Virus record (IMG/VR): IMGVR_UViG_3300038701_003123
Location: 1 to 25,708 of that record
Origin: a virus
Direction: 5' to 3' (one strand)
Length of the DNA stretch: 25,708 nt
Below are positions 945 to 1,080 of the stretch, piece by piece. The position numbers and the translations under genes are program-made. Numbering within the stretch: the stretch's first letter is position 1; each line of letters begins with the position of its first letter. Under the pieces are notes generated by a model. It was not told the DNA's origin, searched no databases, and worked only from the letters and a program-made list of their open reading frames with translations.

Positions 945-957
945 TATTTGTATATTT

Positions 958-1080
958 GAAATCTCTTATCACTTTATCTAAATATCTCACAACTCAAATG
1001 TTGCAAGATTAACGTCCTACAGTCCCGTTTGGGTTGTGTTATTAAGAAGTGGTAAGAGATTTTTTAATGAGCTGTAGGAC
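958..1080 (+). ncRNA. Candidate structured RNA with a pseudoknot
   Basis: Three inverted repeats interlock here. Helix 1 pairs 958-974 with 1047-1063 (17 bp). Helix 2 lies inside it and pairs 988-1000 with 1026-1038 (13 bp). Helix 3 pairs 1014-1023, in the loop of helix 2, with 1071-1080 (10 bp), which lies outside helix 1, so the topology is a pseudoknot. All five imperfect pairs (969-1052, 958-1063, 994-1032, 999-1027, 1023-1071) are G-U if the RNA is plus-strand, but C-A mismatches if minus-strand. A perfect TAnnTTTG box (TATATTTG, 951-958) sits at the left edge, but its likely start point would trim the base of helix 1. The 3' arm of helix 3 can instead form GGACT/AGTCC (1077-1081 with 1087-1091). 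Function unknown; the fold is seen, the transcript is inferred. Confidence 0.55.

Follow-up and report, generated by a model that had tools for sequence, protein, structure and literature searches.

An interlocking structure between a methylase gene and the late genes

The window analysed here is the whole 25,708 nucleotides of IMG/VR record IMGVR_UViG_3300038701_003123, a 25.7-kb viral record with Mu-like portal, terminase and tail genes, and the subject of this work is a structured element at positions 958-1080 of its plus strand. The element occupies the gap between two minus-strand genes, namely a D12 N6-adenine DNA methyltransferase gene (120-944; PF02086, E=2.3e-23), which is the final gene before the phage right end and to whose leader the predicted RNA is antisense, and the last late gene (1083-1427), encoding an unknown protein, whose stop codon abuts the 3′ end of the RNA.

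Base-by-base inspection bore out the three interlocking helices of 17, 13 and 10 bp that the original prediction had drawn from the letters of the window. Helix H1 joins 958-974 to 1047-1063 (17 bp, two G-U pairs), H2 joins 988-1000 to 1026-1038 (13 bp, two G-U pairs), and a crossing helix pairs 1014-1023, inside the H2 loop, with 1071-1080 (10 bp, one U-G pair), forming a pseudoknot. The imperfect pairs are five, as had been claimed, each of them G-U on the plus strand and none C-A. A fourth helix, H4, which the original prediction had overlooked, pairs 1039-1045 with 1064-1070, again confirmed base by base, and competes with H1. The plus-strand fold of the element reaches -38.1 kcal/mol (z -5.2; none of 200 shuffles folded equally well), while that of the minus strand has a z of -4.2. 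In the window the nested set of H1 and H2 is stable, at -32.1 kcal/mol; the value of +6.5 kcal/mol for H4 together with the crossing helix is unreliable, the crossing helix having been one base out of register.

A predicted -7 promoter box, TATATTTG (951-958, plus strand), shares its last position with the first base of H1 and follows the pattern TAnnTTTG, which we take to be the Bacteroidetes promoter type. The pattern stands at this place in 57/63 and in 132/139 relatives of the element, and anywhere on the opposite, sense strand in only 1/63. The 8 nt after the crossing helix hold a mean of 5.6 T in the relatives against a background of 2.55, a U-tract resembling a terminator that is weak in the window (TATTA). 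From the fold z and the covariance-model match described below we predict a structured antisense RNA at about 960-1085 of the plus strand, probably starting near 960-966 and ending near 1080-1085.

An RNA family at the head of DNA-modification operons

Exact-sequence searches with the element returned nothing informative because its arms are too variable, so that the search had to proceed from protein-anchored loci and with a covariance model. The starting loci were the surroundings of relatives of the window methylase, which have the same layout as the window with wholly different arm sequences. MAFFT by itself misaligned H1 and H2; a covariance model built from seven similar RNAs (R1) fixed the alignment and gathered 24 other RNAs, from which a second model (R2), including the -7 box, was built without the window and from methylase-linked RNAs only. 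R2 matches the window at 951-1084 of the plus strand with 45.7 bits (E=1.2e-5). It yielded about 140 non-redundant relatives, the RNA being single-copy, in one place per phage record, and across the family the fold has persisted through repeated replacement of every arm sequence. Matches were present in 39/55 viral D12 loci searched and in 32/62 D12 loci of bacterial genomes. The upstream gap of D12 relatives that have no such RNA sometimes contains other hairpins.

The window matched no family of Rfam 15, and 20 relatives matched none at the curated score, the best being RF04352, a generic long hairpin, at 36.9 bits with a cut-off of 56.8; the original prediction had likewise known of no described family with this layout. 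Searches of open-access papers touching on Winoviridae, Mu-like Bacteroidetes phages and Hankyphage turned up no description of such an RNA. Judged from sequence comparison, the element very probably belongs to a genuine family of plus-strand RNAs, and this predicted family is new and so far found in Mu-like phages and prophages of Bacteroidetes.

The RNA is not restricted to D12 loci. R2 matches were found in 75/80 viral loci of a thymidylate-synthase (TS) homologue and in 15/34 viral Mom loci, rising to 15/18 among those of at least 50% identity, and in all D12, TS and Mom loci with a match the best one runs antisense to the modification gene. In all 27 TS and Mom loci inspected the RNA lies immediately before the modification operon, typically 16-60 nt upstream of its first gene, whichever gene that is (D12, TS, Mom or a small helix-turn-helix-like (HTH-like) gene), and its far end is usually near the stop codon of the late gene on that side. 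The original prediction had placed the element where Mu regulates its modification gene, a position that holds in the stronger sense that some relatives precede a Mom gene itself. An order-wide search independent of the methylase found the RNA in 13/396 genomes, where it faces several kinds of D12 methylase, TS homologues, a single Mom protein (PF25680, E=8.9e-56) and also an operon of ABC-type ATPase, acetyltransferase-like and formyltransferase-like genes, the latter two named provisionally from their sequences. One order-wide match, in L179, is weak and probably false.

Named carriers with Mom are Elizabethkingia phage TCUEAP3 and Porphyromonas phage 012a. The closest named relative of the window by its methylase (82% identity), Winogradskyella phage Peternella_1 (L059), also carries the RNA and is an isolate with a MuA transposase (PMC8776804). 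Bacteroides Hankyphages carry the RNA in the gap from avd to hp44, ahead of ThyA and a methylase, and in PV107405.1 it occupies about 40551-40693 of the complement strand; a public stranded RNA-seq series covers Hankyphage induction in B. thetaiotaomicron jmh43 (E-MTAB-14274; PMC12135933). An 80-aa, weakly HTH-like gene is often the first behind the RNA, before the TS homologue, in Bacteroides-type phages, as in L269 (2689-2931) and as hp44 of Hankyphage (L305, 1480-1722). The operon behind the RNA in L298 (1447-3515) lies at a prophage end, its ABC-type ATPase corresponds to phrog_11143, and it is possibly an undescribed DNA-modification pathway.

Records bearing on the converse were scarce: searches with right-end and portal proteins for phages lacking the operon gave few records and one clear negative, G447, a Mu-like record with neither modification operon nor RNA. 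Bacteroidota genomes yielded hardly any Mom in a Pfam search. In the window, two direct copies of AATCGATTTGTACAT (51-65 and 73-87) mark the phage right end and resemble the transposase end-binding sites of Mu-like phages.

Covariation, helix sets and strand

Covariation was examined in an R2 alignment of 62 rows, which includes a single stray match from the opposite strand and was fitted to H1 and H2 and not to the crossing helix. Of the cells, 93.8% pair, and double-sided changes occurred in 32/33 pairs, comprising 9/9 consensus pairs of H1, 15/15 of H2 and 8/9 of the crossing helix. The covariation score was 0.770, compared with 0.221±0.009 after shuffling and 0.09-0.12 with slid partners. 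On a sequence-only MAFFT alignment 8/10 pairs of the crossing helix showed double changes, so that the compensatory changes which the original prediction had suggested looking for among homologues, crossing helix included, were found, those of the crossing helix on both alignments. When strands were exchanged between sequences among 137 non-redundant RNAs, the duplex score of the crossing helix fell from 8.40 to 6.08±0.11 and that of H4, which joins the linker before the 3′ arm of H1 to the linker after it, from 6.08 to 3.98±0.09.

The median linker is 3 nt between a 13-bp H1 and H4, and 1 nt between H4 and the crossing helix, with a 13-bp H2. On geometric grounds H4 should therefore leave no room for a full H1, and H2 should be unable to form at the same time as both H4 and the crossing helix. 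The conserved pairs fall into two sets, H1 with H2 and H4 with the crossing helix, each nested within itself, and the mutual exclusion of the two suggests a switch. The original prediction had sought a switch in an alternative hairpin at 1077-1091, which is present in the window yet absent from the closest relative, L060 (GGACTATTATAGC), and was rejected in that role, its family score being only weakly above permuted controls (4.23 vs 3.69±0.11); H4, in competition with H1, is the better supported alternative pairing. Directly after the crossing helix, L014, L033, L035 and others have a hairpin of GGGGGC, a U-rich loop and CCCC, weakly above permuted controls, which may be an alternative terminator or part of the late mRNA.

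Wobble pairs were counted neutrally on the RNA strand in 139 non-redundant relatives; because these counts include related sequences, p-values were not used as probabilities. The crossing helix has 96 G-U against 7 C-A and H4 has 49 against 2, together 145 against 9, a bias that places the RNA on the plus strand of the window. By contrast, H1 (43 G-U, 23 C-A) and H2 (38 G-U, 61 C-A) together show no strand bias (81 vs 84). The proposal of a selected plus-strand RNA thus stands on the crossing helix, H4, the -7 box and the U-tract, and finds no support in H1 and H2, whose symmetry would be expected if the hairpin is required in both the antisense RNA and the mRNA leader, or if some process acting on the DNA preserves its perfect pairing. 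The C-A excess of H2 was not used as evidence for the opposite strand, since it comes mostly from one repeated lineage motif of TS-linked RNAs. In that lineage (e.g. L259, L242 and L283) an A-C mismatch recurs in H2 beside the loop (CAU/ACG), and it may represent either protonated A-C pairing or an internal-loop motif.

Proposed control of DNA modification and related systems

We lean, by a modest degree and from sequence evidence, towards the view that the RNA exerts cis-antisense control over the late DNA-modification operon. It is encoded opposite the leader of the gene that it faces, keeps its orientation and spacing whether the locus is of the D12, TS or Mom kind, and has arms that diverge completely between phages, as antisense RNAs would be expected to. 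Within this leader no Bacteroidetes promoter can be recognised that would serve the modification genes themselves, which are therefore probably reached by late read-through transcription. A promoter abutting the start of the modification operon would give a small phage RNA of about 120 nt from the plus strand, running backwards across the operon leader as far as the last late gene. If transcribed in the quiescent prophage or early in infection, this RNA might pair with the leader of the late mRNA, or stop transcription through it, and so keep DNA modification off until late transcripts outnumber it. The RNA could hold H1 with H2, a strand-symmetric set that would allow the mRNA leader to form a mirror hairpin, or H4 with the crossing helix, a terminator-like set followed by U's and specific to the RNA strand; the switch between them would probably govern how the RNA folds, ends and meets its target.

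Some observations weigh against cis-antisense control. More distant D12 methylases in other contexts (e.g. L039-L046 and L083-L087) have no such structure upstream. A strong copy on the chromosome of Paenimyroides baculatum (L146, 1501-1629), with H1, H2, H4 and the crossing helix all kept, stands between two host-type genes, one of the YetF/DUF421 kind and one for a fatty-acid hydroxylase, and no phage modification gene is close by, so that the RNA can occur outside modification operons. The pseudoknot and a loop that is partly conserved, moreover, suggest something beyond plain antisense pairing. The last two points also speak for the main rival, a trans-acting phage RNA (for anti-defence, superinfection immunity or regulation of host or early genes) that occupies the right-end accessory slot alongside the modification genes, both helping phage survival, without regulating them. 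Its own predicted promoter box and terminator-like end, and associated genes that are alike in function but unrelated, are consistent with such an RNA, which we nevertheless regard as rather unlikely given the constant orientation and tight spacing to the first operon gene, the absence of the RNA from the one Mu-like record without the operon, and seed-like arm sequences that are not conserved.

A further alternative, which the lack of plus-strand bias in H1 and H2 would suit, is that the working RNA is the leader of the modification mRNA, on the minus strand, with a hairpin of H1 and H2 that blocks or times translation, the plus-strand features being secondary; the hairpin lies just before the start codon, and a leader structure does control Mu mom (PMC6483171). 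This is improbable, given the plus-strand preference of the crossing helix and H4, a promoter box and U-tract that fit that strand only, and a start codon that, unlike that of Mu, lies outside the hairpin. The near-perfect, strand-symmetric arms, some 0.9 kb from a right end with repeats like transposase sites, could also be inverted repeats acting in DNA, as a cruciform or as a site for a protein or the transposase, and kept perfect by selection or template switching. DNA pairing cannot explain why G-U is kept and C-A avoided in the crossing helix and H4, however, and the promoter box, the U-tract and the occurrence of the RNA far from the right ends of records and in the stand-alone copy make a DNA element very improbable. 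Least probable of all, and barely to be entertained, is an RNA that serves in packaging, as phi29 pRNA does, or as a structural component of the particle: a length of about 120 nt, an intramolecular knot and a place near the genome end would suit it, but these phages encode a Mu-type terminase, and the RNA tracks modification operons and is missing from the Mu-like phage that has none.

It is possible, though on balance doubtful, that cis-antisense control extends to a phage RNA switch of a categorically new class, in which an antisense RNA with a pseudoknot and two exclusive helix sets times hypermodification across Mom, TS homologues and D12 methylases and replaces Com-type control in transposable Bacteroidetes phages. 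No Com gene (PF10122) reached E<=1 in 16 Mom-bearing records, a set that includes fragments. The family would, as far as we found, be the first RNA family described from the transposable phages common in gut and marine Bacteroidetes, Hankyphage included, and would explain how they time DNA modification, their shield against restriction, without the Com protein of Mu. Since the same RNA precedes unrelated modification enzymes, it marks such operons, and searches with the model should lead to new DNA-modification genes.

Among known RNAs, the template RNA of the Hankyphage diversity-generating retroelement (DGR) is also non-coding and comes from the same phage and genome region; the RNA of the new family differs in being antisense to the reverse transcriptase (RT) and Avd genes and in having no template repeat. 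No RT that could partner a retron or DGR turned up either among the genes scanned in the window, which include the two flanking the RNA, or in the annotation of Peternella_1. ToxI-type RNAs of type III toxin-antitoxin systems are likewise small, phage-related and pseudoknotted; the element has no tandem RNA repeats, and its neighbours in the window are the methylase and a late gene of unknown family, with no toxin gene.

CopA/CopT of plasmid R1, RNAI/RNAII of ColE1 and sar RNA of phage P22 are structured cis-antisense RNAs. Each has a short, strongly structured RNA encoded opposite the leader of its gene, and in these as in the phage family the arm sequences vary freely while the fold is kept, with a mirror hairpin in the target strand. 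The phage family differs from them in its conserved pseudoknot and competing fourth helix and in facing DNA-modification operons, and the likeness is one of layout, with no sequence relation claimed. Control of mom in Mu combines the Com protein with a translation-inhibiting structure in the leader (PMC6483171). With com/mom the phage RNAs share their place at the head of right-end DNA-modification genes of the same kind, Mom (PF25680) among them; they differ in that an antisense RNA gene would here stand where Mu has an mRNA hairpin and Com. Any grouping with CopA/sar-type or Com/mom-type control would be by likeness of working and of place only.
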